This document shows, piece by piece, positions 928 through 53,449 of a stretch of 64,000 bases of DNA. Each line of letters starts with the position of its first letter. Position 1 is the stretch's first letter. The notes under the pieces were generated by a model. It saw only the letters and a list, made by a program, of their open reading frames with translations. It had not been told where the DNA came from and did no database searches. Location: assembly GCF_030253575.1 (NCBI RefSeq), contig NC_080557.1:48281501-48345500 (forward strand), written 5' to 3'. This DNA comes from Rhododendron vialii. Lineage: Eukaryota; Streptophyta; Magnoliopsida; Ericales; Ericaceae. The translations under genes and the position numbers were made by a program.

Positions 928-3900
928 GTTTGGGTCCTGGAACACTTGTGGGTTCTGCTGCATTCGACCTATTTCCCATCCATGCTGTTTGTGTGGTGGT
1001 ACCAAAAGCTGGAGAGTTGAAAAAGATATCGGATTTAGGAGTATGGCTAGTGGAGCTTTTTTGGTCCTTTTGGGCTTACATATGGTTATACATTATCATA
1101 GAGGTGATATTTCATATCTGTTCTCCCGAGTAAGCCATCTTAGTTTCACCCACTGTTTGTTTTTATTCTAGAATATTGTAGAACATTCCAGGTGCTCGAC
1201 ACTATATTTCGATTCAGTAACAACATGGTGCTTGACACTACATGTCCATTCAATAACCACCATATCACGACTCATGATAGAAATCAAGTCCCGACTTTGG
1301 GAGCTCTCCTTGGAAGAAAATATGGATAATGGAGTGCACTCCCATTGAGAGAACTGATGGACACAAATAACCAAAGGTTTCTGACTTTCTGTGAAGTGAG
1401 CTAACTCGTCGCTATATACATTTTCCAGCTCTACGATCTCGAAATGATCTTGCTAATGTCTTCCTTTAAACGCTTCTTAAATCATTACCAGAAGTCAATA
1501 TTTAGTTTCCCGTGTAGATTTTTCTCTGCATTCAACATATATGTGTATAGTATAACTGCAAATGGTTTTATCTTCTACAAATGTTGCATGAACTACCTAA
1601 TAGAAACAAGTTAATCAGTTCTTTTAATGGACTCATCTGCTATTGATATTTTCATTCCCTTGCACTCGCCATTTAAAGCCCAAAAATTTTGAACACAAAA
1701 TGAGGACACCCTAATTTTTCTTACTGTAGCTGCTCTATCAACAAGTTAGGAATGAAAAGGTTATCCTTGTTTTGCAGGTGTGGACTCCAAACATTGTTAC
1801 CTTGTGGGAATCCTTATTGACAGTGCTCCAGTTTGGGTTACTGCTGATGCATGCTTATGCTCAGGACAAGCGTTGGCCCTATTTGTCTCTTCCTATGTAT
1901 GATTTAAGTTGCTTGTGTTTATTTTTTTGCTTACGTGTGCATTGCACGCATATTTGTTCATGCATCACTGGCTAAGATTCTTGGTAAAAGAATTGATGTG
2001 CAATTTTTATTCCGTTTTGCATTCAGTGCAAGAACTGAGAGGCCGGAGGACTGGGTGCCAGAAGAGGTTGCTTCATGCAAACATGATAACAGTGTCTCCG
2101 TTGAACACTCTGATGATATACTAGAAGTTGCTGATGATGAACGGAAAGCCATTGTTGATATTTTCTCTATTCATTCAAGAGAAGGTAAACAGTTATTGAT
2201 AGCTGTCTATTTGTATACACTGTTTATCTCTGGAGGAAAAAGGGTTTGGAAACTGGAGGTGCGGAAAGTCAACTCCTTACCAGACTCCAGTAGAAGAGCC
2301 AGGGAAGGAGGGAAAAATCGTACCTTTTCTTATCAGACAGACACTAAATTTCCAAAACCTACTGCGCTATAGCTTCACAAAAAGTTTTCCTCCAAGCTAT
2401 CAAAACCCCAGAAATCGCTCCATTTGGTTTGCACATGGCAGAAGTATCGATAAATTTTTTTTATACCTTTGGTACGATTTGGATGAAGTCCTAGGAATGT
2501 TGAAAAACTCAGAACAATCTCTAAGCTATGTCCAAAGTTAATATATGCTATTTTATGCTTCATTAAGCTGTGAAAAACATGAAATGGAGTCAAGATAAGG
2601 TTGAAAACCAGATTCATGTTTATAGTGGCTAGTGGGTACAAGATGATTGAGAGGAAGCATAAAAAAAAAAATGTCGTGAGTTTGGTTCTAATGTGACACG
2701 CTCAACTCTGTTTGCTGTATGGCTCTTGTTTTTCATGCTACAGTCAAATCTAAATAGCCCTTCTCAAAGTATAACTTGCAGGACCTGTGTATCAGAGCGT
2801 GCCTGGTAATGATCTAGCTGAAGCCCCTGATGAACCTTTGAACAGAAAGATTGATGTCGTACAATCCCACTTGTTCTTAATTTGGAAGCAGCAATTTGTT
2901 GATGCGTTCACGGTACTGTATTGCATACCTTAGTTTTTGAAGTCTTCATTGAAAGCCTATAAACTGGAATTAGATGTCTCATCTTCACTTGGACGTTTTG
3001 GTTGCTCTATTTGCCTAGATTATATTGATAAACACTGCCTGCCATATATGATAAATTGATAGTAGTGGGAGGAAGACATGAATGTTTAGATTAAGTAAAA
3101 GAGAATTCCACAGGGTTGCAAATCAAGGGCAACTCTATGTGAGCTCTTGTTCCAAAAAAAAAAAAAAAACCCTCTATGTGAGCAAATGCATCATTAACAC
3201 GCTTTTGTTTATTCACCTTATCATGGAACAAAGTTTGTAGATGACTCGCCAAACTTCACTGGGTATTGTACTATACTACTATTCTATTCTAGCTGTTGAA
3301 AGTAGTCATAATTTCTTATTTCTTTTAACAGGTGGATAGCACAGAAGGGAGAAAATTGAACAATATCTACCTGAGGCTTGCGAGAATTTTCTGGCAGACA
3401 CTCCTTGCACCATGGAGAATTTTGTTTGCCTTTGTACCTCCACATCAAATAGCTCATGGCTGGATTGCCTTCATTTGCTCTCTAATTTTCATCAGTGGGA
3501 TAGCATACATTGTTACCCAACTCACAGATCTAATTACGTGTGTCACAGGTTGCTCCTAAATGGAGATAAATCCCCCAAGCTTTCTTTGTTCACCATGAAT
3601 ATTACTTCCATCATGTAGCTATCGCACTTAAGTGCTTCATTTGCAATTTTTTCCCGGGTTTTTCAGGAATAAATGCCTACGTGATAGCATTTACTGTATT
3701 GGCGAGTGGAACCTCGTGGCCAGATTTAGTGGCAAGCAAGATTGCTGCTGAACGGCAGACAACAGCAGACTCTGCTATAGCAAACATCACTTGCAGGTTC
3801 ATTTTTTACTTCCACTACAGTTATCCTTGCTACACTGGTAAAAACTTAGGCCCACTTTGAAATTCACTTCTTGTAGTCATTGGAGCGTGGTGTTCATCTT

Positions 3901-4717
3901 AAAATCTCATTAAGTGACATTTATATTGAACCCAAAGTTGTTTTCATACCGAACCCATTACCAGCAGTCACTAGCTTGAGTATCATCATCTACTGTCCTG
4001 GAAGGGTGTGTTGCAGGGTTCAAGTCCCAGTAAACTCGAAACAAAAGGTTAAGGTGCAAGTCTAAGGATTGAATGCTATTTTCAGAGTCGGACTAACAAA
4101 TGTCGTTATTTAGAAGTAGAGGGGGAGCTTTTTCCCCTTTTCAGATCCGTCTTAAGTGAGGAAATACTCCTGGTTTGTTTTTTGAACAGCAAAGAAGGAT
4201 AAATTTATTAATCAAAGTAAAATTACAATGATTAAAAACATAGAAAGTACAAAACATCATAACGAATGAAATGCATCACAATCGACTCCCAACCTGCCCG
4301 GAAATCACATGCCGCTAACTACCCCAAGAGCAGACCACATTAAACGAATCAAAACAGCAGTAAATACTCCTAGTTAAGAACTTTGAATTGATATTGTTGC
4401 CTCATTTCTCCTTTTGTAGCAATTCGGTGAACATTTATGTGGGCATAGGCATTCCATGGCTCATTGACACAGCATACAACTACATAGCCTATAAGGAACC
4501 GTTGAGGATCAAGAATGCCGAGGGGCTCAGCTTCTGTTTGCTTGTTTTCTTTGCTACTTCTGCCGGCTGCATTGTTGTTCTGGTATTTAGGCGAATAACA
4601 TTGGGTGCTGAGCTTGGAGGGCCAAGGCTATGGGCCTGGGTAACTTTTGTGTACTTCATGTTGCTTTGGATGATTTTCGTTGTGCTGTCCTCCCTTAAAG
4701 TTTCAGGCATCATCTGA
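928..4717 (+). CDS. MHX: Vacuolar magnesium(zinc)/proton exchanger MHX, 3' part
   Basis: MHX is a tonoplast antiporter of the NCX/CaCA family that exchanges protons for Mg2+ and Zn2+. Seven exons are supported by GT-AG sites and matching phases: 928-1103, 1778-1896, 2027-2184, 2782-2912, 3332-3548, 3667-3796 and 4420-4717 (stop TGA). Together they encode about 409 residues of a protein usually near 540 long. Visible parts are the [14 protein letters not shown] membrane segment, an acidic cytosolic loop (ARTERPEDW to about FVDAFT), the [16 protein letters not shown] segment, the second exchanger repeat [17 protein letters not shown] followed by [14 protein letters not shown], and a final membrane hairpin ending SSLKVSGII. 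The N-terminal exons with the first repeat lie off the left edge. The gene converges on PHR2, the same neighbour as in Arabidopsis. Family assignment is very secure. The exact 1896/2027 junction (giving LPIARTE) is inferred from phase. Confidence 0.92.
3133..3183 (+). repeat. Tiny poly(A) insertion with 12-bp direct repeats in an MHX intron
   Basis: The 12-mer CTCTATGTGAGC occurs at 3133-3144 and again at 3172-3183. Between the copies lie 27 bases: TCTTGTTCC, a run of 16 A, then CC. This has the shape of a severely 5'-truncated retroposon with a target-site duplication. Similar objects occur at 24696, 29162, 41440 and 53411. Confidence 0.6.
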
Positions 4718-5531
4718 GGAGTTCAATTTTCCCCTGAAATATTATTTGTTTCACTTCCCCTACTTTTCATTGATAGTGCTTTGTTGTAAAGCTTTCTAGG
4801 ATTCAAATATAAAATCCATACAAGGGTTTGGTCATCCATTGTGATAGAATTAGTAAATGAATAGAAAAAGAGAACGTTGACTGGTTTCATGGTATTCAAG
4901 GACATGTATTGCTAGACCAAGCTTCTTTAATAGTGCAAGTAGTATTACAATGGTCCTTGTCCGTGTTCTTGCTTCTCAAATATCTTTAATTTACTTGTGG
5001 GTATTGTATTGAGTCGTGATGTATCCTATCCCTTTTCGTCTCTTATATAAACCTTGAAGCACTTGTTATGCAACAAGATTGCGAACCACACGCACACACA
5101 ACGAATTGGAGCAATCACAGAGAAACAGACAAGAATTTTTCGTGGTTCTTCAAAATGGGGTACATCCACGAGGGCCACTGATTTCAATATATGCAGTAGG
5201 ATTACAATCGCTCAACTCACACAGATTGTACAAGGCAAGGAAAGTAAGTTGAGCAACGGCTGGGAGATGATAAGGCACACTAGCAAAGGCTCTTCTTTAA
5301 TGCTCCTGAAACCTCAACTGCAGCTTCTTCTGTGTGATTGGTGTATGTGTGAGTTTATGGGAAAACTTGGGGGACAATTGGATCCTACTAGTTTGGAAAT
5401 ATTCAGTGTATTCAATCTCCTTCATTATCATTCTTAATCGCTTCCATCGGTTTCCTTAAGTGATCATCAATTTATATTTTCGGGATCCAATATATATTGT
5501 TATGTACATATAATTTAATATGTTCTACACA

Positions 5532-5792
5532 CTCCCTTTGTCCCCATTTGTTGGTCTCAAGTAACACTTTTTGTTGTTTTAAAAAGATTGTCCCTCTTCA
5601 ACAGTAAATGGGCACTATTAAATAAATTTTTACTTTTGCCTGCCCTTTTATAAATGAGAAGTACTAACAAAGTAAGAAAATAGAATGATTGGAGAGTAAA
5701 AATGAAAAATAAGATGATAAGAGATGCAATGATTGTGTCCTCTTATTAAGTTGGAATCTCTTAAAGAAGCCAACAAATGAGGACGAAGAGAA
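5532..5792. mobile_element. Stowaway/mariner-like MITE, degraded
   Basis: The left end CTCCCTTTGTCCCCATTTG is the imperfect reverse complement of the right end CAAATGAGGACGAAGAG at about 5773-5790. The CTCCCT-start and GTCC motif are typical of mariner-class MITEs in plants. The TA target duplication is not clean, so the exact ends are uncertain. Confidence 0.55.
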
Positions 5793-6354
5793 TAATAATG
5801 TTTGGTTTGTAGTTTTTGAGATAAAAAAGTTCTATAGGTTCGTGTATTTTTTTGTCTTTAGTAAATTTTTTTAACATTTTAACAAACTCTTTTACTTTTT
5901 GAAGAGAGGTATGTTATGTACATGCAAAAAGTAAAAAAAAAAGTAAACAATTAGACAAAAAATTACTAAAGACGAAAAAACACGGATGACGAAACAGTCA
6001 AATTTTGGAGAAATTATTTCTGAGAGGAGAACCAAACAAAATTGTTGGTCCCACAAAACTTGAATATTTATATGCTAACTAAATGAAGTGAGTCTCGGTA
6101 TTTGTTATACTCATTTCTAAATTTGTTGATGCGGATCCCACTTAGCCTATCTCATCTGACGAGGAAAAGAGGCAAAACAATATTATGGGTCCCACAAAGA
6201 TTGAATATTTATATCCTAGCTTAATGCGGTGGGTCCTATTTGATGGTTTGCTCTCTCGAAAAGATTTAATGATATCTTGGTCGATTTTGGATTCCACAAG
6301 CGATGATGGAAAAACGCATTCCTACTTTTATTTTATAGGTTGTTTACGTTAGTG

Positions 6355-6720
6355 ATTAACTTATGCAAAATAATTTTTTGATTGTCTTTATTCAAAATTT
6401 TTTTTTTTTTGCATTTGTTAGTTTTACGGCAAACTTTTATGTGATATGGGTGAGTAAAGATGAGAGGAACCTGAAAAGTAAAAAATTATGACTTTTACAC
6501 AAGTATTTTGGAAAATATCCAAATAAAAACTCGAAAAGTCAGTTTTTGACCTTTTCTTGGATATTTCACAAAATACTAGTGTAAAAGTCATAATTTTTTA
6601 TTTTTCCGGTTCCTCTCATCCTTACTCGCCCGTATCACATAAAAATTTGGCGTAAAACTAACAAATGTAAATTTTTTTTGAATAAGGACAAAACCAAAAA
6701 ATTGTGGTGAATAAATTAGC
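6355..6720. repeat. Fold-back repeat, family A
   Basis: Two long arms of about 170 bases are inverted relative to each other around a centre near 6540. The left arm carries GCATTTGTTAGTTTTACGG and GAGAGGAACCTGAAAAGTAA; the right arm carries their inverted counterparts (GGTTCCTCTCATCC, AACTAACAAATG). The same modules recur at about 35155-35340, 35870-36200 and 56425-56740. It has no coding capacity and is probably a hairpin-forming MITE. Confidence 0.7.
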
Positions 6721-7496
6721 ATGAACAGGGTTAGTATACAGGTTTGGTTGCCGATCAAATGAAAACACAGGGCCAAAGTTAGCAAACGTGAGCTACTTGT
6801 ACCCAAGACTTGGATGGGAGGTTTGAGCTCACTGCTTTTCTATACTTGTAGCACCCCACTCCCTCTGCTGTTCCTACCCGTTCCCTCTTCCTTCCCGCCC
6901 CCGGAGAGCATTGAGCAGTTAGCATTCGAGGAAGATGTCTTTCCGGCTAATGTAAAAGCCTAGAACGCATACCATAACATGGGTCAAACACAAGAGATAT
7001 GGGTGGAGACGTGGCTGATACTAGAGTGGAATTTAGTGCCTTTTATGTTCACTGTTTTCCTATTTTACACATAACCGAGTTTCAAATTAAGATTCTTGCA
7101 TGAGCCATTTAAAGGTTGAGAAAGCGTTTAGATCATATGCACTCCCAGCTATTGGCTTTACCACAATTGAAGCTGATAAAAAGGGAAAAAGGCATTAAAC
7201 AAATCGTCGCAATACATAAGACCATAACAAAGCAATGGAAAGCAGAACCACACGGATCTGTTATTCACGAGGAGATAAATTAACATCCGAAATGTTTTAA
7301 GGGGCGAAGCGACCATAACGACCTTCTCAAGAACACCAAAGCTTCCTTCCATGTGCAACAAATTATTTGACAGTGATGCAGCTCACTTTTTAAGAAAGAA
7401 CCGTAATCCAAAACCTAAATGGCTACAGGCTGAAATATCATTAGCAAACGGAATACACCCCCACCAAGAGTCTGATTTTTGTTTTCAAGTTTCTGC

Positions 7497-10400
7497 TTAA
7501 GCAGTGGCACCTGCATAAGCCGTGACTGGAGTGGTACTCTGTTGTCTACCTGCGCTGTATTTCTTGGTGATGAATCTGCAAAAGCCAACACAAGAATCAC
7601 TAGCACCAGCAGTTTCACTAAAGAAGACTTATATTCTGGAGCAGAAGTGTTCAATTGGAATTTTTTTATACAAAATTAAAAAAATCACTAGCCAATAAAT
7701 AATTGGAGCAGGAATAGGCAAGGTTCATATGGTGATACAGATTATGGGGAAAATCTTAGTTATATTGGCGTATGAGTTAAGAATGGTATGTGGAGATACC
7801 TGAAGAAATCCCTCCATAACAACTCATACATCAACCAGTGCATCCCAGTATCAGAAGGCCCACTGCCACCATCTTTCTGGTTTGAGGCAGCAGAAATTGT
7901 CCTGCCAATGACACGAATCAGCTGAATCTCAGAAAATGTTGGACAATCTTGTTAACAAGTACATATTTTCTCAACCTGTAGACCTGAGCACATTAAACTA
8001 AGCCCTACCTGGAAATGGATTTCTTCAAATCATCAAACATTGAGCGGGGGGAGAGGCATCCCATAGAGAGCCATGGAGAGATTTTGCAGGAAAAGTTTGC
8101 ACCATAAATGCTGTCATTGTTGCCATTCTTGGTTCCATTGTTTGGTTGCGCTCGGCATTCAGCTGCGAATTTTGTAAGCCTCTGCAATGCTTCAGTTTCT
8201 CCTCCCACCAGAGAAGCATTGGCAGCCGGCTTGCCATCCTGCATAAGGACAATGACGACACTGTCACTTTTTAGAAGCAGAACAAAGATGTCTGTTAGTT
8301 TTACTCAGGTTTACCAATGACTGTTGAAATATTGGTCACATAATAGGTCAGAAAGAAATTGGGGTAAACTCTGCAGGCAGCATTGAAATGGGTGACTCAC
8401 TGCAAGAGATCTGTTAGAACTTTGTAGACCAGTTGACAATAGGTAGCGCAGCCTCTAGATTATACAGACCATCAAGCTTGGGTGGCTTAGAGATGCCATG
8501 TGGGACAAGTCCAAAGTTCCAAACAATATCAATTCAAAGGAATGCTACAATGTCTAGGACTCATGACATCTTCAACAATTCTTACAGCATCTCAACCATT
8601 AGTATTGAGCTTTACTGGAAAAGGATGGAAATAATTACTAACTAACCCAAGATAAACACCGAATATGGCGAAATGACTATGCACTATTACATCCTTGATC
8701 GATAAAGTGTGCTTCTGACAAAAGCGGCATGACTAGCGGATTCACGAAATCTAAACACAATCTTTCATTCATCAGGCAGATTCACAGCCATCGAGAAGGA
8801 ACCTCGTGGATGACATCGAAAGGATACACAGCCCACATAGATGGGAGATCACTGAAAGCACTAATGCTAAAGAGGTACGTATGGGCTACAGCTACAAGCA
8901 GCATAAATGGACATCAAAAGACTGGCAATTGGAAGAAACTACACTGAACAAACCATACTACCGCAACATAAAGACACCTTATAGGCTTATACCATGTTTT
9001 TTCTCAGTCAAGGGCAGCATAGTAATTCCATTTTCTATCAATATTGTCCAAGTAAAGCAACAAAGGCTTGGAATTAGGCAAAGATGGCAAATCATGAGCA
9101 TAATTCAACTCGAAGAAAAAGAATGAAGGCAAAGAAAGCGGTAAGAATGAAATAGAATGACGTAATTAGAGCATCCTCAATGTAATAATAAAAACCAAAA
9201 GGTTGCTAAAGTTAGCAATGTGTGCTCAAAAAAGTGCTCACATTGTAATAATCAAACTTAGCAACCTCTTAACCAATAATCAAATTTGGGCATTTGGATA
9301 ATCAAAACTAGCAACTTTTTGCCAATAACCCAATTTATTGTATCCCACAGCTTCTCAATCAAGTACAAGTGTACAACCATCATGGGAAAGTGGAACTCAC
9401 TCTCCATAAAGCAAATGCTTTATTGGTAGGTGAAACTCACTCTCCACTTTGGCAAGTGGTTGTGCATTTAACAATATTGATCACTTTATGGATAACAAAT
9501 GCTCTTCACTTTCACTTATCTTACTAGAATGACATTTAACGTAGACCATTAGATTGAGAAGAAAAAAACTTACCATTAGATTTGAATTTTTGCCAACTCA
9601 TTTTGATTATGGGCAAAAAATAAACAATGTGGGACTTGACATTACTAACTTTAACAACCTCTAAATGGATAATCAAAATCTGATGTGGCAAGGCTTGATT
9701 ATTCACTTTTGATCTATGTAACACGGACACGGATATGGACACGGGACACAACAATTCTAAAAAAATGGGGATACGGACTCGGCAAGGGACACGCCATGTG
9801 TATAAATAAATAAAAAATAAATATATGTACATATATAAAAAAAAATTATGAACCATTGTATATGAATAATTTCACAAATTGTATAAAAAAATTTCAAAGG
9901 CATAATTACAGTTTAACCCAAATGTTTTAAATAATTTCATATTAACCCCCAAAATTTTAAAAATATTACATTTTGACCCCTAGCCATGTCCCCGGCGTGT
10001 CCTCAGCCGTGTCCCATATCAAAAAATAATAAAAATTATTGGACACGCCATGTGGCGTGTCCAATACGTGTCCCCGAGTCCAATACGTGAACACGGCGCC
10101 CTTTTGGAGTGTCGGTGCTACATAGCTTTTGATTATTACATTGAGGATGCTCTTAGTTTCACTTCAATCATCCTCTTAATAAGTTTCACCACTCACGTAT
10201 AGAACTTCACGCATATAGATTGTAACTGTATTCTACTAATCAAACCTGTGTCAAACCATTCAACAGTACTCATACTGCAAACACACTTTGAATGTTGGAA
10301 AAAAAGGAAAGATGAAAACAATTACTGTACTTAGAAGCTTAAACTTCAAACAGATACAAAACCTCTCATGTCAGGTCACATGATCTGTCACAAACACAAA

Positions 10401-18100: not shown

Positions 18101-21100
18101 CAAAATTAAAAACAGAAAAAACATGTGCACAATCTAGAAAGATCTCTGATAAATTTAGGGACCCTAAGCAAAACAGTCTATCTGATGAATCTGCCCGCAG
18201 AAGTTTTCCCTTCATATCTACAGGTTCTTATTAACCTAATAATTCATCTAAATAGAACTTAGCTATGCAGGTCTCCAAAGCAAGTCTGTGGAGTTCAGAA
18301 GGATTTCCTTTCTTATTATGCGTGCAGATTTTAGTTGATTGTATGGACCTTTATCAGATCAAGAATTTCTGAAGATAGCAAGGAGAAAAGTCTTTTTGTA
18401 CTAGGTAAATACAAGAGATAAGAAGTGAGAGGCAGCTGACCCCAACCTCTGTAATTCAGGGGTATCAAAACCAAGACAAGAAGGTATCAACAGAGGCACG
18501 TTGTCACACAATGATAGGAAAGAGGAACAACTCCCAAAACCACCCCACTTAGAGACTCAATTTCAAAATAAAAGAAATGTACAAGGCTTTTCAAACTCAA
18601 CAAGTGTGTCATGTGAGTGGTAATGACACCAGTCTTGGAAGGAAATGCTCTAGGAAATCAGGTGAGGAACCAGGTATGGTCAACTACAATTCTCGAACAC
18701 CTTTAACTTCCAAAGTGCTTACTGCATAATACATTCCAACTACCAATTTCTGCTGAAAAAGTCTTTGATTAAAAAGTACTTAAACTGCCACTCAAGCTAT
18801 AAAAATTGCACAAACAAGTTCTAGAAATCATGCACCACCGAATCCCTTGCTTGGTCTGTTGTGGCTCCTCTTCCAGTTCGAGTGGGGATTACAACTTATC
18901 GGAGAAAGCTGAATGGTTTTAAAACAAAAACTCCACTTTTTGATAGGTATGTAATACAAATACTTACATCCTGAATTTGTCCCTTTACTTCAGGGAATTA
19001 TAGAATTATCCCAATAAACTTACAAGGATTGATACATCAGCACTTAAAAAAAAAAAAGACAACTACAACAGATGCTACACCATATTTGTGTGATTAACAA
19101 AGGTGTAGAACCTCCATACCTTGTTCAGTTCTAAAAGCCTTGCTCCATCTTTGCTGTGAGCTTCCGCAACTCCATTATCATTAACCAAGGAAGCAATTTT
19201 CTTCTCAAACTCACTTCTAGGTTCAAATTCAGAAGCTATTGCACCTACAGTGGAATATCCCAGGTTTCTGTCTTCATCAAAATAAAGAGTTGGCGCCTCT
19301 CTATTCTTCTTGACCAAAGGCTCCCACTTTGTAATATCCTTCTTTGATTGTTCATAAGCTACTTTCCTCTCCACCTTCTCCCGATCTACTTTTGGAAGAG
19401 GTGCTTGAATGGGCATGGATTTCTTCTCCATTCGTTGCATGCTCGCTCTAACTTTGCTAAAGCCAAGCTTTCCATGGAGAGGGTCCAGAAGGTCCTGAAT
19501 GCTAATGCGGCCATCACCATCAAGAACACTACGACTGGGATTATATTCAGACTCTGGGTATGCCTCAGATATGACAAGATCATTTTTCCTCCTATTACCT
19601 GGCAAGTTATAAAAACTTGGGCAGTTAGGTTATTATTGCAATCAGCGCAATAGAAGGGTGACTTTCAGACACCACATAAAACCTACTTGAGACATGTTCA
19701 AAGTAGGATTCTACTTGAAGCAGTCATGTGACCATTTTTTTTCATTTTTCTCATCACGATTCAATGGCAACTCGTACATTGCTCATGATATAATTGCCAA
19801 AAACGCACAGAAATGTCCTGCATTGATGGTAACACCGGTGTTGCTCGCAACCTTCCTCAACAAAGGCATAATTAAGTCCAAAAACAAGGTGGACATGAAT
19901 AAATAACTTCTACACTTGAAGTATAAATATCTCCCAAGGTCTGAACTAGTTTACGTCATTCCAAAAGCAGGTAAGAGTCCTAAGACTATTTAGCGGTGAT
20001 GCCTGTTGCCTAATCATATGACAACTTAATCAATTAGGACTATTATGAAACACACTCCACACACAAACGAAGGTTCCCGAATACAGGAAATCTTACCTTC
20101 AAAAGCCTCAACTGGAAGCCCAGTGATTTGTTGCAACATCCTTGAATGCCTGCCTTCGTCTTCCTCAATCTCATCTCCATTTTGGTCATCCCTACTACCA
20201 TTGGCATCACTACCATCTTCATCATCATCTGATGCTACATTCTCATCCTACACAAAGGAACACAAGCAAGAACAATATAGACAGCAAAAGGAAAAGCAAT
20301 TTATACATGTGGTATTCCGGGATGCAAGAGCAAGATTGTGGGATGATGCAGCTCATAAGTGCCGCAATTTGGTACAGCACAATGATGAAAACAATCTTCT
20401 GCAAACAAGTCTTTTCCATCATAATTTCAGATCACATAAGAAAAGGTAGGGAACACAGCCTGGTTCTACACAACTCTCCCTCCTCCCTCCCTCCCTCCCT
20501 CCCTCCCCCTTGTGTGTGCAGGTGTGCATGGTGTTCGCGCTCCACATATCAATGGGATAGATGAAACCAGAAATTGTTGTCCGTCTGATATATCTATCTG
20601 ATAAGTGCCGAAATATTGATATTTTGGCTCTCCAAATTACACTTGTTAATTATTTATATTTGTTATCTGATATTTATTTTGCTTTTATTGTATTTATAGG
20701 TTGATCAAGCTCGTTGCCCAAAATATTGGATAAAAAGAAGAGTTTAATGAAGTTTGGGGTTAAAGCGCAGAATGCTTCAAAGTTGAATTGTTAATTTATT
20801 AACGCATGAAGTCCAAGGGGCTAAATGTAATTAATGCTTGAAATCCTATATAAACAATGGAAACCTACTGACTTGAGGGTTAGCAGCTGGTAGGCGTGGA
20901 CTTGCCGTGGAGCTACGAAGGTACGAAGCCAACAGTGAACGAACAAAGAGGTTGCTGTCATGGAGGCTAAATCAAGATTAAGTTGTCTCTTCCCCATGAG
21001 CGGCTAAACCCCCTTCTAGGGTTTAGATGAAGCTCAAATTCTGAGTAATACTATCTATGTTTTGATTTGGGTTTTATTATTCGAATCGTGGTTGTATGAC

Positions 21101-22780: not shown

Positions 22781-22880
22781 GTTAACGGGTTCAGATCCAG
22801 TCCAGTCTTCAAAAGACCAGTTTGGTCCAGTTAACGGCTAAGATTAATTGTACAAAATCCAATGCTTCACATGCTGCCAC
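22781..22880 (+). repeat. Left arm of a long inverted repeat
   Basis: About 100 bases starting GTTAACGGGTTCAGATCC and ending at GCTTCACATGCTGCCAC are closely matched, inverted, at 24750-24853. The arms are about 1.87 kb apart and enclose plastid-derived DNA. The left arm sits less than 100 bp upstream of the UTP14 start codon. Confidence 0.8.
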
Positions 22881-24695: not shown

Positions 24696-24760
24696 GTGGC
24701 AGCATGCGGCCCTGAGGGCCTTTTTGTCTGATAAAAAAAAAAAAAAAAAGTGGCAGCATG
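24696..24760 (+). repeat. Tiny poly(A) insertion with 11-bp direct repeats
   Basis: GTGGCAGCATG occurs at 24696-24706 and 24750-24760. The 43 bases between begin CGGCCCTGAGGGCC, continue TTTTTGTCTGAT and end in about 17 A. It looks like a 5'-truncated retroposon inserted into the right arm of the inverted repeat. Confidence 0.65.
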
Positions 24761-24853
24761 TGAAGCATTAGATTTTGTACAATTAATCCTAGCCGTTAAC
24801 TGGACCAAACTGGTTTTTTGAAGATTGGACTGGATTTGAACCCACGGTTAACA
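24750..24853 (-). repeat. Right arm of the long inverted repeat
   Basis: This is the inverted partner of 22781-22880. The reversed arm starts GTTAACCGTGGGTTCAAATC and runs to GCTTCACATGCTGCCAC, differing by scattered substitutions and a few indels. Confidence 0.8.
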
Positions 24854-29161: not shown

Positions 29162-29217
29162 CTACTACGCAAATAAGTTTTTTTTTTTTTTTTGATCCGC
29201 TACTACGCAAATAAGTT
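29162..29217 (-). repeat. Tiny poly(A) insertion with 18-bp direct repeats
   Basis: CTACTACGCAAATAAGTT occurs at 29162-29179 and 29200-29217. The 20 bases between read, on the minus strand, CGGATC followed by 14 A. The same CGGATC-A(n) tail is seen at 53424-53436. Confidence 0.7.
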
Positions 29218-32408: not shown

Positions 32409-32409
<1 letters not shown>

Positions 32410-36398: not shown

Positions 36399-36407
36399 TA
36401 TTTTGTT

Positions 36408-41439: not shown

Positions 41440-41487
41440 ATTTCTCGCTCTCTTTTTTTTTTTTTTTTTAACGGCCCATTTCTCGCT
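41440..41487 (-). repeat. Tiny poly(A) insertion with 10-bp direct repeats
   Basis: ATTTCTCGCT occurs at 41440-41449 and 41478-41487. The 28 bases between read on the minus strand GGGCCGTT, a run of A, then GAG. Confidence 0.6.
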
Positions 41488-44036: not shown

Positions 44037-44105
44037 ACTCTGCAATCGCCTCTGACTCTCCCTCATATTATAACGATCTCTTCATAACACGAGAGGTACC
44101 CTTCT

Positions 44106-44109
<4 letters not shown>

Positions 44110-44143
<34 letters not shown>
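44110..44143 (+). repeat. (GA)n microsatellite in the LEA gene leader
   Basis: About 16 GA units lie between the TATA box and the start codon. Confidence 0.9.
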
Positions 44144-44147
<4 letters not shown>

Positions 44148-44268
44148 CATTAGCTGCTGCGAAAGGTTTTTCCATAGAAGAAGAATCCACAAGCCTTTTC
44201 GCAGTAGCCTTCAATTTTCTTTTCTCCAATTCGCATAAACATATTATTATACTCCTACACAAGCAGAA

Positions 44269-44857
44269 ATGGCTCGATCTCTCTCGAACGCCAAGCTGCT
44301 CTCCGCTTTCGTGGTTGACAGAATCTCCGTCGCCGTTAGCAGGTAGCTACCGCATATTCCTCAATCTTCTCTCTTTGATGTTACCCGTTTTTTGCTCTCT
44401 GTTTCTACAATACGGAGAAAAAGGAAACGAAAAAACAGAGGAAACCGGAAGATAACAACAATTACAGTACTAAATCAGCATATGGAGTATTTTCCATTTT
44501 CTACGAATATTGCACGTACAAGTATATTCTGGAAAAGTCAATAATTTCCATGCTTTATTGCATTTTTAGGTAGGATTAATAAGATATATTCAATATTGTG
44601 TATTGAATATTGAATTTAAAATCCAATTTTGTGTGTACAGGCGGGGATACGCAGCGGCATCACAAGGTGTTGCATCGGCTTCCGTGAGGGGAGGCAGCGT
44701 GATGGCGAAGAAAGGAGGGGAAGAAACAACCAAGAAGACATCTTCGTGGGTACCGGACCCGGTGACGGGATACTACAGGCCAGAGTCCCATGCCGACACG
44801 ATTGACGTTGCTGACTTACGGGAGATGCTCTTGAAGAACAACGTTAGACGAAACTGA
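44269..44857 (+). CDS. SAG21: Mitochondrial LEA_3-family protein (SAG21/LEA5-like)
   Basis: Two exons, 44269-44342 and 44641-44857, join as AG|G to a 96-residue protein, the usual size for this family. The N-terminus MARSLSNAKLLSAFVVDRIS is a basic amphipathic mitochondrial presequence and is followed by the conserved RRGYAAASQG motif. The C-terminal half has the family signature SSWVPDPVTGYYRPES and the IDVADLREMLL end. Relatives (Arabidopsis SAG21/LEA5) respond to senescence, oxidative stress and ABA and act in mitochondria. The intron position after the presequence fits the family. The AATAAA at about 45026 is a plausible poly(A) signal. Confidence 0.93.
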
Positions 44858-45703
44858 ATAGGAAAGATGGTGATCGCTCGGAAATCATATTCATTCCGTT
44901 TCTTCGCTTTCGAAGAGATGGATTAATGTTATAGTAGACTCCTCCTCTGTGCCTTGTCGTGAGGGATTGTTATGGTTTCTGGGGTCTTTTGTTCTTTCCA
45001 TTGCCCGAAATTGGTTTACCATTTGAATAAAATTTACCAATTGCGATGTTGGTTTTCTGGATACCTTTCAGTCATTTTTTTAATATAACTGTATGTATTG
45101 CGCGCATCTCGACTTTCTCTCATCTTTTCAATTTTAGCTGTTTCAATCAGAGTCGAAAATCACATGTGCTCTAATAAATAAGATGGTGGTGAGCAAATTG
45201 AAATTGAGATACTCAAAAGCTTCAGCTCCAAAAAAAAATATAGTGAAAAATTGAAATTAGGTTGTCCTGTAGAATAAAGCAATCGATTGATAGCAAACTG
45301 ACATACACAATTTATCTTCCGGTAAAGGACTAAAGTCAAGCTTGGAGAGGAAATTAAAACAAAAAGATAGTAGTCCGGATTACCTAAAGGTAATATATTG
45401 GTAATATAAATTTGAGCGATTAGTGTCAGCCCGGTACATGCATGCACCTACACCTTACATGGTCAAACACGAGAAGTCATTATGGTGATTGAATGAACCG
45501 CCCCAAAGGGGTCCTAGGAGTACAAGGTGTCTCTTGTAACGGCTTCCTACAACTACGGGGATAAGCTTATCTCTACGGGAATAAGGATTAAACATTCCAA
45601 GTTTTACGGGAATTCCTAGGAAAGCTATGCAATTGGACCAGATAAGTGCCATCCTAATTCACACCTCAAAGATCCAAGGATTCTAATCCTAATGGTCACT
45701 CTT

Positions 45704-46332
45704 GAGCAAAGTTTACTTCCACCACTTGTGGTTTTGGCCATGTGCAGATACACCCCATGTGATTTAAAAGTGTGCACATAATTTCCTGTAGTTTTAAAAT
45801 TGTGTGGATAGACCCCCTGCCGTCATGTTTTCTATCCATATTAACGGAGATATATCTCACACGTCTCTAGAATGTAATCTTAGTCGTTCATAATAAATTA
45901 AATAAAGAATATAGTATCTCTATAAAAATTCATCCCGATCAGGCATCAATAACCCAGTGATCTAATTTGTGGTAAATTCAAATTGAAAATTTTAATTTCA
46001 TAACAAAATTGATTCAACCATGAGATTTTCGTTTTTTGATTGACTTGAATTTTGGCATAGATGTAGTAAACTCTACAATATCAACGATTTGGATTCAATT
46101 TTTGGTATAGGGGATGGTGGGGTTAGATTTAAAAAAGAAGAAGAATCAAGGGAGATGATGAGGATATATCGGTCTTTTAATATTGTGTCCGTTAATATGG
46201 ATAAAAAATATGATGGCAAGGGGTCTATCCGCACATTTTCAAAATCGCAAAAGATTATGTGCACACTTTTAAACCATAAGAGGTGTATCCGCACATAGCC
46301 CATATCACAGGGGGTCAAAATAAACTTTGCCC
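45704..46332. mobile_element. Non-autonomous TIR element, possibly Mutator-like
   Basis: Inverted ends share GCAAAGTTTA and then about 150 bases of similarity (for example TTTAAAAGTGTGCACATAAT and TATCCATATTAACGG in both arms). The long arms suggest the Mutator group. I could not find a convincing 9-bp duplication, so ends and class are provisional. Confidence 0.6.
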
Positions 46333-46369
46333 TTTCAAATATTACTATACATACTTCGAAGATGGAAAA

Positions 46370-46578
46370 GTCGATAGAAGAAGCAATCCACCTAATGCAT
46401 TTTCCCACTGAAAGCAACTTCAAACTGTATTTACTTGTCGATGGAAGAAGCAATCCACCTAATGCATTTTCACCTAATGCATTTTCCCACTGCAAGCAAC
46501 TTCAAACTTGTCGATAGAAGAAGCAATCCACCTAATGCATTTTCCCACTAAAAGCAACTTCAAACTGTATTTACTTGG
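46370..46578 (+). repeat. Tandem repeat, about 70-bp unit, three copies
   Basis: Each unit carries GAAGCAATCCACCTAATGCA, TTTTCCCACT and AAGCAACTTCAAACT. The middle copy has a small internal duplication of CACCTAATGCATTTTC. Confidence 0.85.
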
Positions 46579-46814
46579 ATAACATTTTCCTGAAAGAAAA
46601 AAAACTTATTTCATTGAACACGTAAGCGTTTTCGTCAAAATATCTTTACCATATAGCATACACGTTGATACTACTCGGCCTACATAAACCTGCTCAAAAA
46701 CGGTAGGAAAACAACAAACAGTGCAATTCCCGACCCGTCTAGCCAGAGATCTTTTTTGACCCACGCAAACACTTGGCTTAAAAGATACTACTATATCTAT
46801 ATATTAGTAGAAAG

Positions 46815-47550
46815 TAGGGGTGCTCGTGGTCCGGTCCGGTTCGATTCGGATTTTTAAGAATCCGAGGACCGAACCGCTAGTCACGGTTTTTTGAAAATGA
46901 AATCCGTTTCCGGACCGAAAGTCTACGGTTCAGTTCCAATCCAATCCGTGACTTGCGGATCGGTTACGGTTTTGTCCACAAATTTTGGTACATAAGTAAG
47001 CAAAAATTAAACACTAGCATATATTATCTCGCAGACTAAAGCATTACACCAAATGAAAGCAAACACCAAATGAAAACAATACGTGCAGTTCTAGTCTTCC
47101 AAACGTTCATTAAAACCAAACAACAAAGTGGAACAAAAAAAAAAACACCAAAGATCTTTCATCAAAATGCAAGGCACGGCAACCGGCAAGAGTGTTACTC
47201 TAGAATTGGATGAAGTGAAACATTTTGTAGAGCTGCAAATAATGAATGAAGCGAAATTAGATTACAGTAAAATGAAACTCTAGCATACAAATTAACTAAG
47301 TTATAACAGAAATATAAACATTTTATTTATGTGTAGACATATATATATAATTATTTATAATAAATTCTCAAGGTCCGGTTCGGTTAATTCACGATTTCGT
47401 AATGAAAATCCGTGGACTGAATCGCGAGTCACGGTTTTTTAATTTTTCAATCCATGTCCGGACCATTAATCCACGGACAAAATTCAAAAGGTACGGATCG
47501 GTTCGGTCCGATCCGATTTCACGGTTCACCGGATTTTTTGAGCAACCCTA
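46815..47550. mobile_element. Non-autonomous hAT element
   Basis: Ends TAGGGGTGCTCG and (reverse of right end) TAGGGTTGCTC form short terminal inverted repeats. Flanking 8-mers GTAGAAAG (46807-46814) and GTAAAAAG (47551-47558) differ at one position, consistent with an old hAT target duplication. Subterminal regions are rich in GGTCCGGTTCGG and CACGGTTTTTT motifs. It encodes no transposase. Confidence 0.8.
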
Positions 47551-47877
47551 GTAAAAAGGTGTCAACAAACTAGGGTGGGCATTAAATATTCCAACTGAGG
47601 CTCTAGTTCTCAGTCAAATGTGGGAATAAGCACTCACAACACCAGTCGATCGGCCCCTCAAGACTGAGCTACCGCTCCCCCAAATCTGGGGATTACAAAC
47701 AGGGCACCAAATTGAAATTCAAGCTAAACATGCTTCCCAATCAATTCAAGTAACAATCAATAATAGTTCAACATGCTTCTGCATTCCAATCAGCCAAAAT
47801 AAAGTACAACCAACATAAATTAGATCCAGAAGTAACAGCAGTACGTAGTAGAATTTAGTCAATATCCATGTGGAAGT

Positions 47878-48039
47878 TTAAGATGTTTGATCCTCGACAT
47901 CTTTCTTGCAAAAACCCCCCATCGACGCTGCTCGGTTTTTGGCACTCTTCGTCAAGAATGCCTTTCTCTCATTATTATTTTTGACTAAACAGTCAAATGC
48001 CCTCAGCAGTGTCTGTTCATCGAAATACTTCACCTTCAT
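47878..48039 (-). pseudogene. Unrecognised C-terminal coding remnant
   Basis: A 53-residue frame starts at an ATG at 48039 and reads MKVKYFDEQTLLRAFDCLVK ... RKAFLTKSAKNR ... GGFCKKDVEDQTS. Upstream in frame is KCEEV, then a stop, so it looks like the end of a longer gene. A diverged inverted copy is at 48734-48955. I do not recognise the family. Confidence 0.4.
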
Positions 48040-48733
48040 AACTTCCTCGCATTTTTAAGGCACTTTTAGAGGATTATAATAGAATAGTCTCTTCGTGTAA
48101 AAGGGAATCTAATAAATGCGTGAATTTGATTGCCTGCAAAGCTAAGGAGGGCCTTCTTCCTCCTCCTCCCCTTTCCCCTTGCCCTATATGTTAGATTTAT
48201 TCCAATTTTGTGGACTAGCATATTGATTTATGTTAAAATGTTCTGGATTAGTTCGACTATCAAATATATCGGAGTATTTGTTTAGACCCATTTGGTTAGT
48301 GATCACCATTTTTATAGTGGGTTATTTTGATGCGCCTAATTTTGTAAGTATGTATTTTGTTAAGTGTGGGCCTGGTGCTATATGGTTAATTTGGACTCAT
48401 AATGGGCTGGGCCATTTTATAAGCACAAGAGGAGATCCTACTCTCATCTTCATATATATGTGTGTCTAGCCCATTGAGATACACACGGTTGTTGAGAAGA
48501 AGAGGAAAAGGGAGTAGCTACTCCTCTCAGGGAAATACCTGGTGCCTTTAAGAGGCTTGATCTTCTTCGGCCATCTAGAGATCAAAATCACTCATCTATG
48601 GCGTCTTCGTCTTTCACAGGTATGAGCTTAGGTTTTAAGTTTATTTCACATGCCATGGATTGGAGCAAGAAATTAGGGCTTGTAACTCTGCAAATTTCTA
48701 ACACTATAGAGTTGAGTACCCTTTTGGACACTG

Positions 48734-48955
48734 ATCATGTTGCTAAATGAAACATTCTTGCACCACAAAAATTGCAAGGAAGTTATGAAGGAGAAGGATT
48801 GCGACGGACAGACGCTGCTGAGGGCATTTGACTATTTAGTCAAAACACGAGAATGAAGGAAAGCCATTCTTGACGAATAGTGTCATACACCAATCAATGT
48901 CGGTAGAAGGTTTTTGTAAGAAAGTTGTCGAGGATGAATCATCTTCTTAAACTCG
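48734..48955 (+). pseudogene. Inverted, broken copy of the 47878 remnant
   Basis: It reads LLNETFLHHKNCKEVMKEKD, CDGQTLLRAFDYLVKTRE, then a stop, with recognisable further homology to about 48950 interrupted by more stops. Together with 47878-48039 it forms an inverted pair about 0.7 kb apart. Confidence 0.4.
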
Positions 48956-49936
48956 TTCCTTCCATAGTGAGGTGACGTTCAGTCGGTTCTCCGTAATTTC
49001 TTTAATTCTAAGAGCAAAGCAAATTCTCCAAGTTGTGCAGATAACTTGGAGAAATGAACATGCATATCTTAATTGGACGGAAAATTCCTCGTGACGTCGA
49101 AACTTCACTCGCGGGACCGGTTGGTTTCTCTTGTAATACCGTACCTCTTTCGGAGCAGTGATCATCTTTTCTTCTACATTGAAGACTTTGCAAAAGTCCT
49201 AATTGACATGTCTTTCCCCACTACGTGACAATTCTAACCCAAAGCCTATAACCTCGTTTTTTTCTCACCCATCCAAAGATGGACTTCACTGGCGAACATA
49301 ACTGGTGGGTATGATCACCCGTTATGTTCTCTTTAAACTTGGATATATATGCATCCGCTGTGAAACTGCACTGTCCTTTTCAGTAAACTGAAAATTGGCG
49401 GGTGACCTGTGATCTGTGTTGGAAGAAGACCCACGGGGTACTCGTATGTGCAACGAGTACCTCGTAGGTGTCGGTGTCAGCAGTGATTGGTGGTGGAAAA
49501 TTCGTGAGTAGAGATGCATATAAGAGGGAGAGTGAGAACTGAAAACAAAATGACTCTTAATTTCTCCGAGCTGAATGGGATTGATTGGAATTAGAAATTC
49601 AAAGAATTTTTGATAAGGATGAAAATGTTACTATAAACAAAACGTGTGGGATCTGGTTAAGTCTTTGGTTGTGAATCAAAGTAGGGGCGAGTAAATAGCG
49701 GAATTTTTTTTTTTTTTAGTGGTTCTTAGTTATTGTTAATATAAAAAAATACTAGGCAAAAAGACCAATTCAACCTCTGTTGAGGCTCATCTTGTCTTGA
49801 CTGTTAGATGAAACTAACAGAATTGACCAACAAACAGTCGTACCACTTGTGGAAAAAAGGCATATTCCGATCGAACAGCACAAATTTCAGTTCCAAAACA
49901 CATGCAGGTTACAGCATTGTCAGCATAGATAAGAAA

Positions 49937-50470
49937 TCAGTTCAACAAATCAGATAAAACACGATACAAATTGAAAATAGTCGCTCTCCTAGATCTCATT
50001 CTTCCTCCACTGACGTCGTCACAATCAAATCCACAGCCACACTGCGGGCACTCGTCAAAGCCATCGACGGAGAAATCGGCGGAGGTGATTCCGACGGAGA
50101 ATTCGAGCTCGTCCCCATCGCGAATGACCTCAGCAATGTTGAGCCAGAAGAAGAGTACTTTGACGCTGATTCCGCTCAGCTTGTACAGCTTGTCCGTGGT
50201 TATGACGCCCGTGATTGTGGACTTGTACTTGAGCTTGTAGCTGCTGATGGTGAATGTGCAGCTGCTGTTCAAGTAAGCCGAGAATTTTCCTGTTGACGTG
50301 TCCAGTTCGTAGCCGGTGACGCCTTGTGGGAGAAGACCGATGGGGAAATCGTATTCCTCTAGGACTTCGTACGCCGTGAGCGTGTCATTGACGGCGGCGG
50401 CGGAGGAGGATGAGGTTGAGAGAGTGAGTACAAGGAGTAGGAAGAGGCAATGAGCAAACTGTGAAGACAT
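49937..50470 (-). CDS. DUF538 family secreted protein (copy 1)
   Basis: A single-exon gene of 177 residues. The N-terminus MSSQFAHCLFLLLVLTLSTS is a signal peptide likely cut after the Ala-rich stretch. The DUF538 core follows: TAYEVLEEYDFPIGLLPQGV, TGYELDTSTGKF, LKYKSTITGVITTDKLYKLS, GISVKVLFFWLNIAEV and ELEFSVGITSADF. A Cys motif CPQCGCGFDC ends the domain. The family is plant-specific and fused in the literature to trichome, stress and pathogen phenotypes; the biochemical role is not settled. A CT microsatellite lies just above the ATG. The paralogue at 54220-54708 shares strand and architecture. Confidence 0.92.
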   Translation of the reverse strand: MSSQFAHCLFLLLVLTLSTSSSSAAAVNDTLTAYEVLEEYDFPIGLLPQGVTGYELDTSTGKFSAYLNSSCTFTISSYKLKYKSTITGVITTDKLYKLSGISVKVLFFWLNIAEVIRDGDELEFSVGITSADFSVDGFDECPQCGCGFDCDDVSGGRMRSRRATIFNLYRVLSDLLN

Positions 50471-50486
50471 CGGTGGAGGATCGCCT

Positions 50487-50489
<3 letters not shown>

Positions 50490-50525
<36 letters not shown>
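50490..50525 (+). repeat. (TC)n microsatellite in the DUF538 leader
   Basis: About 18 TC units lie 20 bases upstream of the copy-1 start codon (GA on the coding strand). Confidence 0.9.
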
Positions 50526-50529
<4 letters not shown>

Positions 50530-52993
50530 CAAGATGGAGAAATTATGGTTTGTTGGGAGTGGGAGTGGGAGTGAAGGGGGGTTGGAAAATTGGATTTGTC
50601 GGTCAATTTGATGCAGTTCCAATGCTAAATAGCAAAAAATGGTCATTTAATAAGTTAAAAGTGTCGTGAGTGTTTACGTCATATTTAACTAACCGCCTAT
50701 CGATTATCAACTAAAAAGCGACAATTATGAGAATGCTTCATATTTTATTAATAATATAACTAATTTTTATTTCTTTTATTTGTTTCTATTTTAATGAAAT
50801 GCAGGACACTTGGCTTGTTCCTTCACATGTGGAAGTTAAAAAAACATTTGTCGTGTTCCTACACATTTGAAAGGAAGTGGGAAGTTATTTCGACTAGTGG
50901 AAGCAAATGATTGAATGAAGACTAGTGGAGAAGTTAAGAAGTTATTTCCTACGTTTTTGTTTTCTATAAATAGTCTTTTAAGACTTCATTGTAATTCCTC
51001 TCCAACAAATCAAAGTCTATATTTATTTGTCTTAATTTTTGGCACTACTAACCCATTCGGGTTATAATTAGGAGTAGGAGTAGAATTTCATATTCTAAGT
51101 TTAACTTAGGATCTTCAATGTGTCGCTCACAGCGATAGATCAATCGTTGAAGATTAATGGAAGTTTCTTCCATTCGTCTTCTTTCTTATCACCAATCTCA
51201 CATTTGACTCGACTGTCATTTCTCTTCCGGTGAAGTCCTGAAATACGGCGTGGAACCACGGATCCGTCTAGGGGAGACATGGTCAAATTCACCCTTATTT
51301 TTGTTGTTGGCTTTGTTTCCCGAAATGTCTGTCGATTTCGATCGACGGAAAAATTGGTAAACAGTGAGTCATGCTACACGTGATGAAATATTGAGATGTT
51401 ATGCATAATATTTTATCGATTATTTTATTTTAAGTTACGCTATTCCGTTATGAGGTGTCAAAAAAAATCTACAACAATTATGTGAAGAAAATATTGGGAT
51501 GTTATGCATAATATTTTGTCGATATTTTTTTTTAATTTACCCCATTCCGTTATGAGATGTCAAAAAAAAAAAAAATCTACAACAATTGGCCTTTTCAAAT
51601 GCCAAACAATGGCTTTAAGTCAAATTTAGCACAAAAATAACAAAACTATTTTCAATTTCACATCAAATGTCAGACAATGATTTAACCGTCACGAGCAAGT
51701 AAAATGAAAAGAAAGAGAGAATTTTAGAAAGACACCCTGAACTCACACATCAATATCTCATAAATACCTGAACTTCATGGTATTTTGATGCAGCAGGCAG
51801 TTGAGTTTGTTGTCGCAGGGATGGATGTTGTAGCAGGGAGCTTGATGATTCTATGCTCAGTCGCATAATCTGTTAAAATGACATTCGCTCCTGCACTCAA
51901 TCATCAGTCTGCGCTCACATTCTCAATTCTCGCATTCATGTATTCTAGTTTGGTGGAGTTTTTCAAAAATGCTTAAACATTTTCGTTCGCGCTTCTGTAC
52001 CCGCATCCGTATGCGCGTTATGTGACCACTGGATGAGCTCTATCTAATCAGCTACCCAACCACGTGGTTTCACGTTTCTCGTGGCAGTCTGCCAGATGAG
52101 TTCTAAAAAGTACTCAACGCCTTTATTTTTATTTTTCCACTAGTAGGAGTATAAAATTTGTCTGCCCACTTCATGAATTCAAGCAATAAATTTACCCAAA
52201 GCAAGCACGTAAATTAAGAAGCAACAGGCTTGTCTGCAGTCCAAACGTGGACGGCAGAAGTGTGGTTAGAGTGTTCGCAACCGTCGGATGAAATTTTTAA
52301 CAGTCGAGATTTAAAAAAAATTTTAAAAAGTTTGGACTGTTAGATGTAAAGATGAACGGCTGTAATTGAACTGCAGGACTTTCTGCAGTTAGACGGCAGA
52401 GAATCCGCCTCCATTAAGAAGCTAGGAGTAGCTAAGATAAAAACAAAGATAAACGCGTGGTCCTGCAAGTGAATGTGTACGAAAAAGCTGTCGTAAAGTT
52501 TCGTTGTTCGTTCCGTCGTCGACCCTATCTATGTTTCTACGATGGCCCAAGAACACGCTCATTCTTCAGCCGTAGAGAGACTTTTGAATTGCGAGGTACC
52601 ATTACGAGCTCAATATATACGAACAGGTCCAGACTCATGGACGCGCGGATCAGAGTTTTCGAAACACCGCTATGTGGTGTTTTATATATATATATGTATT
52701 AGGATACACCTATGTATCGTAGAATACGTTACCGTATCGTGAAAATTCTATAAAAAAGAATACAGGATAGAATACGAACGGTTTTTCAGAGGAGACGATA
52801 AGATATGTGTGCGGTATCGTAGTTTTTGAACAAAGAAGCGGCGGTGGTACGGATTTTTCTCTCTGAGCTCATGAGCTTATATTATGATTTATGAGAGAAC
52901 CTTTTATGTTTTCCTCAAAATATGACGTTTGAGCTACAATTATCCGTATAATAAAGCATGCATGTAATCACGCCCTACTCAAATGTAGAGAGG
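50526..52993. other. Spacer between the DUF538 genes, left part
   Basis: No gene is supported. The stretch 50930-51290 has a TATAAATAG box, a TCATTGTAATTCC leader and a CGTGGAACCACGG palindrome, resembling LTR sequence without definable ends. A tandem duplication at 51383-51597 is listed separately. A possible MITE lies around 52225-52410. Confidence 0.45.
51383..51597 (+). repeat. Tandem duplication, about 110-bp unit
   Basis: Two adjacent units share ATTGAGATGTTATGCATAAT (second unit with G for A), TATTCCGTTATGAG and TCTACAACAATT. The second has a longer A run. Confidence 0.8.
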
Positions 52994-53293
52994 GCCATCA
53001 TGGTGGTAGCCCAGTTGGCACAGGTGATGGGCTTAAGTGCCTCTCCTTCCATGTGCACTCGGGTTCGAGCCCCTCCAGTTGCAAAAAAATATATGAGCTG
53101 GAGGGACGCATGGAGGGTTCTGTGCCAGCTGTGCGCCTAGGTGATGCTGTGGTGACGGTCTGTCCTCTCGGACAGTAGCTATGGCTCTAACCGGACATTC
53201 CACAGCAGGTTGGGAGCCCCTATGGTCACGACCAAGGGGGTTGCTACGCCGTTCGCCCCCTCCTACCCTTTTGTTATTCAAAAAAAAAAAAAA
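52994..53293 (+). mobile_element. tRNA-derived SINE with intact target duplication
   Basis: A 300-bp element begins GCCATCATGGTGGTAGCCCA (A-box region, GTGGTAGCCCAGTTGG) and has a B box GGGTTCGAGCCCC about 50 bases on, together an internal RNA polymerase III promoter. It ends TTTTGTTATTC plus a poly(A) tail. An exact 13-bp direct repeat AAATGTAGAGAGG flanks it at 52981-52993 and 53294-53306. The intact duplication and long A tail suggest a fairly recent insertion. The open frame at 53033-53281 (-) is only a shadow of it. Confidence 0.92.
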
Positions 53294-53410
53294 AAATGTA
53301 GAGAGGCGTATTCATAAACTAGAGTTGAATTAAAGTTACTGGAAGATGTCACAAGAGCATCCACACAAAAGAATGCTATTTTTTCATTGTCATTCGCATT
53401 TGTGGGTAAT

Positions 53411-53449
53411 GAAAAGTATCATTGCGGATCAAAAAAGAAAAGTATCATT
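53411..53449 (+). repeat. Tiny poly(A) insertion with 13-bp direct repeats
   Basis: GAAAAGTATCATT occurs at 53411-53423 and 53437-53449. The 13 bases between are GCGGATC plus six A, sharing CGGATC-A(n) with the insertion at 29180-29199. Confidence 0.65.

Follow-up and report, generated by a model that had tools for sequence, protein, structure and literature searches.

Long interspersed nuclear elements (LINEs) of the plant L1 clade, described for the ME1 lineage together with partner short interspersed nuclear elements (SINEs), carry a hairpin at the 3′ end whose 3′ side has conserved bases; recognition of this end is stringent (Ohshima 2013, PMC3747384). For the stringent LINEs UnaL2, ZfL2-1, and ZfL2-2, binding of the LINE protein to a stem-loop of the 3′-tail RNA has been shown (PMC4176376). 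In the human NF1 gene, a poly(T)-only insertion has been described that is possibly a severely truncated L1 or Alu element (PMC3219598). Here, we describe inserts that consist of a 7-nt body, GCGGATC, and an A tail between target-site duplications (TSDs). Two of them lie in a 64,000-nt stretch of the Rhododendron vialii genome (contig NC_080557.1, positions 48,281,501–48,345,500; hereafter the window). Their 3′ end recurs throughout the genome, and most copies that were read begin at the same nucleotide. A second 3′ end, TCTGATC, shows the same stop.

These inserts resemble the ME1-lineage LINEs in their L1-type duplication and poly(A) end. They differ from the LINE members of that study, which are truncated at various positions (100–1,000 bp), in that most stop 7 nt from the A tail; moreover, the conserved 3′-flank CGAG of those LINEs matches neither GCGGATC nor TCTGATC (PMC3747384). 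The stem-loop binding of UnaL2, ZfL2-1, and ZfL2-2 is the kind of anchor that we propose for the 7-nt stubs. However, these are animal LINEs, and fixed-point abortive insertions are not described in the sections of that report drawn on here (PMC4176376). The NF1 case is similar in that the insert is almost entirely an A/T tail and involves the L1 machinery, but the NF1 inserts, in the part of the source used, are single events of unclear origin, without a shared 7-nt body or a fixed boundary (PMC3219598). Tailless retropseudogenes and truncated small-RNA retroposons are likewise very short retroposed RNAs with a duplication; tailless retropseudogenes, however, are tRNA-derived and have no A tail, whereas the 7-nt stubs carry one by construction of the search (PMC3747384). 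A literature search that covered few subscription journals did not turn up a LINE stub with a fixed length of 7 nt, which is not proof that the phenomenon is unpublished.

Results

Most GCGGATC-A10 copies read share a 7-nt boundary

The genome (532.6 Mb, 13 contigs) contains 934 copies of GCGGATC followed by at least ten A's (458 + 476), compared with a single match (0 + 1) to the reversed-pattern control. A preliminary description of the window had proposed one source family behind two inserts with CGGATC ahead of the A run; this fits, as their 3′ end is that of the genome-wide family of 934. The first 100 of these places, which cover the chromosome-sized contig C1 and extend 16 Mb into contig C2, were read, and one of the two window inserts (site 3) is among them. 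Fetched genomic loci are given L-numbers below.

In a first analysis of 63 sites, a duplication (score ≥8) abutted GCGGATC exactly in 54, compared with 4 of 1237 when the right flanks were swapped. Indel-tolerant alignment of all 100 sites placed the boundary at 7 nt in 84, comprising 64 exact sites and 20 with 1–3 further shared bases that were scored as 7 nt; when flanks were swapped, 3 of 395 showed a duplication. Three pairs among the 100 sites are segmental duplicates (L049/L050, L059/L061, and L060/L062), and the independent count is therefore 82 of 97. The target differs in nearly every copy. Upstream of the 7-mer, no common sequence was seen apart from that of the segmental duplicates and of a few repeats in the flanks.

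Unlike what is expected of L1-type copies, the truncation points are not broadly spread, with 84 of 100 at one point. The inserts also lack the features of SINEs, namely a Pol III promoter head and a body of ~80–500 bp, since the body measures 7 nt in those 84. The preliminary description had called the inserted body almost nil; it is indeed very short, but its length is fixed at 7 nt and is not near nil by chance. In L021 (~1068–1110, +), GAGGATC-A14 lies between repeats that differ by a one-base indel, and this insert may be a variant of the 7-nt stub.

The flanking duplications are of the L1 type

In the 54 sites, the duplications were 10–18 bp long, with a mode of 15–17 bp, and 48 were free of mismatches. 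Their first base was A in 50 sites and the second in 47, so that they typically start with AA. The A run, which was 10–19 long in the 63-site analysis, is present by construction because at least ten A's were built into the search pattern; it adjoins the 3′ copy of the duplication. As in L1-type insertions, the duplications are exact and variable in sequence (54 of 63 sites, and 84 of 100 with the 7-nt boundary), and the target start is A-rich on the insert strand. There is little room for doubt that these are insertions with a duplication of ~15–17 bp that starts with AA and an A tail that adjoins the 3′ copy. Target priming by an L1-type enzyme explains why the duplications have this length and start with AA and why an A tail is present. 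The target-primed origin of the 7-nt inserts, as had been suggested for the window, is strongly supported by the abutting duplications (54/63, compared with 4/1237 for swapped flanks) and the AA start. The base preceding the body is T in 30 of the 64 exact sites, where it could pair weakly with the copied U; the boundary is kept without this T in the other 34.

When joined-flank queries (n = 89) were compared with the fetched loci, one empty site was found, for the 7-nt insert of L107 (C2:14898429). This site lies in the window at 20622–20736 (−), where 87 of 115 positions are identical across the junction. It has a single target copy and no insert, and the only gap (1 nt) is away from the junction. 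L107 and the window locus are copies of one repeat, and the empty site is thus paralogous, not orthologous. The empty target expected of L1-type insertion is represented by this one site.

Longer copies carry a putative hairpin upstream of the 7-mer

It is shown, or nearly so, that the 7-mers are the 3′ termini of longer retroposons. Two long forms were found among the 100 sites read. L029 measures ~914 bp, is flanked by 16-bp duplications, and has GATGCCGTATGGCATTTTTAATTATGAATGATTTTCAAGCGGATC-A13 at its end; a long LINE reading frame was not seen in these ~914 bp. In L127, imperfect duplications flank a body of 24 nt, GCCTTTAAGGC-GTGTTT-GCGGATC, the last 22 nt of which are common to L128. A diverged relative of L029 in L015 ends in CGTGTTCGGATC-A11; the LINE reverse-transcriptase fragments in L015 belong to copies with other 3′ ends. 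The end TGTTTGCGGATC-A6 has only seven copies, four of which (L129–L132) are 7-nt stubs with a target that ends in TGTTT by chance. Since these copies are few and most of them are stubs, long forms are rare. L029 and L089 (C1:1398043-1398970) represent a non-coding retroposon that has a G20 run close to its start and may be a LINE with an internal deletion.

Two other explanations of the 7-mer were rejected. A hairpin GATCCGC...GCGGATC around the body is ruled out, as it is not seen in L029 or L127. GCGGATC is also not an RNA 5′ end primed on an internal A run, as L029 starts otherwise after its duplication and ends in GCGGATC.

A second 3′ end with the same 7-nt stop was observed, which goes beyond the claims of the preliminary description. 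The end TGTCTGATC-A10 has 17 copies in the genome, compared with none for the control. The boundary is at 7 nt in 9 of these 17 TCTGATC sites and at 8 nt in one. L143 ends at 15 nt, just 3′ of the hairpin, and L110, with 24 nt, extends to the 5′ base of the hairpin GCCCTGAGGGC. L109 and L111 are long copies, and no clear duplication was seen in L140, L141, and L148. The longer form of this end is found in L109, L111, and L112, and as a 26-nt copy at site 2 of the window. TCTGATC was dropped as an ordinary control with spread truncation, as it behaved like GCGGATC.

In the longer copies (L127 and L109), a short hairpin, recognized by eye, is followed by a U-rich linker of 6–8 nt, the 7-mer, and A(n). 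The longer products stop non-randomly next to the hairpin, at 15 nt (L143), 24 nt (L110 and L127), and 26 nt (site 2).

The five A-run inserts reported for the window are present

All five A-run inserts between exact direct repeats that had been reported for the window are present where described. The exact repeats at sites 1–5 measure 12, 11, 18, 10, and 13 bp and enclose 27, 43, 20, 28, and 13 bases, respectively. The A run is on the + strand at sites 1, 2, and 5, and on the − strand at sites 3 and 4. Sites 3 and 5 have (G)CGGATC ahead of the A run in common, whereas sites 1 and 4 are outside both 7-nt families (GCGGATC and TCTGATC).

At site 5 (+), the 13-bp TSD (left copy, 53411–53423; right copy, 53437–53449) flanks the body at 53424–53436, which consists of GCGGATC (53424–53430) and A6 (53431–53436). 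This site has the same 7-nt body as the GCGGATC family and, with A6, falls outside the A10 counts. At site 3 (−), the 18-bp duplication occupies 29200–29217 (5′ copy, in the orientation of the insert) and 29162–29179 (3′ copy), and the body GCGGATC-A(n) lies at 29180–29200, with its first G (29200) also part of the duplication.

Site 2 (24696–24760, +) has 11-bp repeats (24696–24706 and 24750–24760) around a 26-nt body (24707–24732) and A17. The body holds the hairpin GCCCTGAGGGC and represents the TCTGATC-type 3′ end in a longer form. Its flanks are two different repeats that meet at the duplication, and this duplication is therefore less certain as a TSD than those of the other sites. The repeat in the left flank ends exactly at the duplication. 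A repeat of ~95 bp occurs in the window as inverted copies at 22790–22880 (−) and 24750–24845 (+), and the same inverted pair is found on C5 (L004 and L008), ~1.4 kb apart. This recurrence of the arrangement suggests that the ~95-bp repeats are terminal parts of a DNA transposon.

Site 1 (3133–3183, +) has 12-bp repeats around TCTTGTTCC-A16-CC, which is a different 3′ end; a related 15-nt body, TGATCTTGTTCGTCC, is found in L027. Site 4 (41440–41487, −) has 10-bp repeats around GGGCCGTT-A17-GAG. The genome contains only three exact copies of GGGCCGTT-A10, so that not every window site comes from a large family, and GGGCCGTT is ruled out as a third large family.

The window was scanned for repeats of ≥10 bp with an A run of ≥6, using the mirror structure (T run) and 60 run-preserving dinucleotide shuffles as controls. 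This gave eight A-end matches and no mirror T-end match, compared with a mean of 0.3 and a maximum of 2 in the shuffles. The contrast was weaker when the repeat was relaxed to ≥8 bp (nine A-end vs three mirror matches). A looser scan that included all five sites gave ten A-end and two mirror matches. Extending the scan to 264 kb, with a duplication of ≥11 and a run of ≥7, gave 10 matches vs 2 mirror matches with bodies of ≤100 nt, and 12 vs 9 with bodies of >100 nt. The plausible other inserts with a TSD and an A run in these 264 kb have spread bodies of 9, 15, 17, 26, 76, 82, and 286 nt.

Further repeats were seen. At 51464–51590 (+) in the window, 82 nt and A14 lie between repeats of 15–16 bp; this insert ends in GAGATGTC and is a probable truncated LINE-type copy. 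Another LINE 3′ end, TTTTGCCGnnC-A(n), is found in L015 (7844–8033), L010, and L019 (− strand); the inserts between repeats measure 17 and 76 nt, and in L015 a coding LINE fragment lies upstream. A tandem array with an 87-bp unit (2.9 copies) occupies 61218–61471 of the window.

Discussion

We give about even chances to L1-type target-primed reverse transcription that usually halts 7 nt into the RNA, perhaps by anchoring at the 3′ hairpin. The enzyme would nick the target, prime on the A tail of a LINE-type RNA, copy the A's and 7 nt, and halt, and the end would then be joined to the target. Since the copied A tail varies from 10 to 19, the stop is at a fixed place in the RNA and does not lie at a set distance from where synthesis begins. 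The likely cause of the stop would be a reverse transcriptase held on the hairpin 6–8 nt upstream of the 7-mer, with its slack exhausted; longer products (15, 24, and 26 nt) would then end beside the hairpin. In a stronger form, which we advance tentatively, retroposition in this lineage would have a built-in checkpoint: once the A tail and exactly 7 nt have been copied, the L1-type enzyme would have to release its own 3′ hairpin and would mostly fail, and 7-nt stubs of two or more LINE families would be left behind.

Several observations weigh against halting at a hairpin. The distance from the hairpin to the 7-mer is ~25 nt in L029, far above that in L127, and the spacing is thus not constant. 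RNA folding of four 3′ ends gave z-scores at the level of shuffled sequence (−0.97, 0.34, 0.38, and −0.75), and the minimum-energy fold contained the hairpin for two of these ends. The anchoring step draws on few copies, with the stem-loop recognized by eye (L109, L111, L112, L127, and L029). No coding LINE donor ending in GCGGATC-A(n) was found in the fetched loci, with no genome-wide search for relatives of L029. The preliminary description had proposed a search for a full-length LINE or SINE ending in CGGATC-A(n); longer retroposon copies exist (L029 and L127), but no full-length coding LINE was found in the fetched loci.

Moreover, 16 of the 100 GCGGATC sites depart from the exact 7-nt boundary. 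Their bodies are 8 nt in two sites (L042 and L088), 9 nt in four (L050, L053, L095, and L116), 13 nt in one (the second site of L054, whose right flank is incomplete in the slice), and 24 nt in one (L127, with 17 extra nt). In the remaining eight, the rule detected no duplication (L029, L046, the second site of L056, L063, L090, L091, L102, and L106); the duplication of L029 is ~914 bp upstream, and the right flank of L056 is incomplete in the slice. The 17 TCTGATC sites include likely duplicate pairs (L138/L139 and L140/L141) and are a biased sample, as the search pattern required TG ahead of the 7-mer; this favors targets with a terminal TG, and the complete TCTGATC family probably has more members. 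Outside the window, the same scan of 200 kb at 20 places in the genome, two of them adjoining the window, gave 12 A-end vs 4 T-end matches, several of which are tandem duplications. The bare structure is therefore much less enriched there and is a weak marker.

The main rival to hairpin anchoring is a fixed cut in the RNA, which we regard as possible but doubtful: a longer LINE or SINE transcript would be cut 7 nt before its A tail, and the stub RNA would be copied to its end by L1-type machinery. The sharp 5′ boundary (84/100) is as expected from run-off at an RNA 5′ end, and the two 3′ ends have the 7-nt boundary in common, which falls at the edge of the U-rich linker (GTGTTT/GCGGATC in L127; CTTTTTG/TCTGATC in L109). 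However, the discrete 15- and 24-nt products would need further fixed cuts.

It is improbable that a modified or bound RNA base just upstream of the 7-mer blocks the reverse transcriptase. Such a block is known from m1A58 of the tRNA T loop, and in L029 the sequence TTCAA-GC-GGATC would place two loop bases and a five-base stem arm in the 7 nt. This loop, however, is absent from L127, with GTGTTT ahead of the 7-mer, and from the TCTGATC family (TTTTTG).

Two explanations appear still less probable. GCGGATC-A(n) could be a self-standing micro-retroposon that is transcribed inside host RNAs and re-copied, as 934 copies exist vs very few longer ones among the 100 read (L029 and L127). This is very unlikely for a 7-nt element without a promoter, and host sequence would be expected upstream, where none is shared save in segmental duplicates and a few repeat flanks. 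We hold it equally unlikely that the stubs arose by random and very strong 5′ truncation of ordinary LINE copies. The other inserts in the 264 kb do have spread bodies (9–286 nt), but the single boundary common to 84 of 100 sites already contradicts this for GCGGATC. Finally, chance, replication slippage, or assembly artefact, to which the 12 vs 4 matches and the tandem duplications in the 200 kb outside the window might point, can be practically dismissed given 934 copies vs 1 in the control, duplications in 4/1237 and 3/395 swapped flanks, and a target that varies in nearly every copy.

Evidence for target-primed reverse transcription usually comes from copies whose length makes them recognizable. 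About a thousand stubs with one boundary would directly read out the step at which elongation fails, and would allow target choice to be studied free of selection on insert length. Each stub adds an A run and a duplication yet escapes repeat finders, and the stubs would thus give rise to poly(A) microsatellites unnoticed. They are also a natural test of how the LINE protein holds and releases its 3′ hairpin. If the proposed checkpoint is real, the stubs would preserve abortive initiation across the genome as a fossil record, from which the places and frequency of target priming could be read independently of element length.

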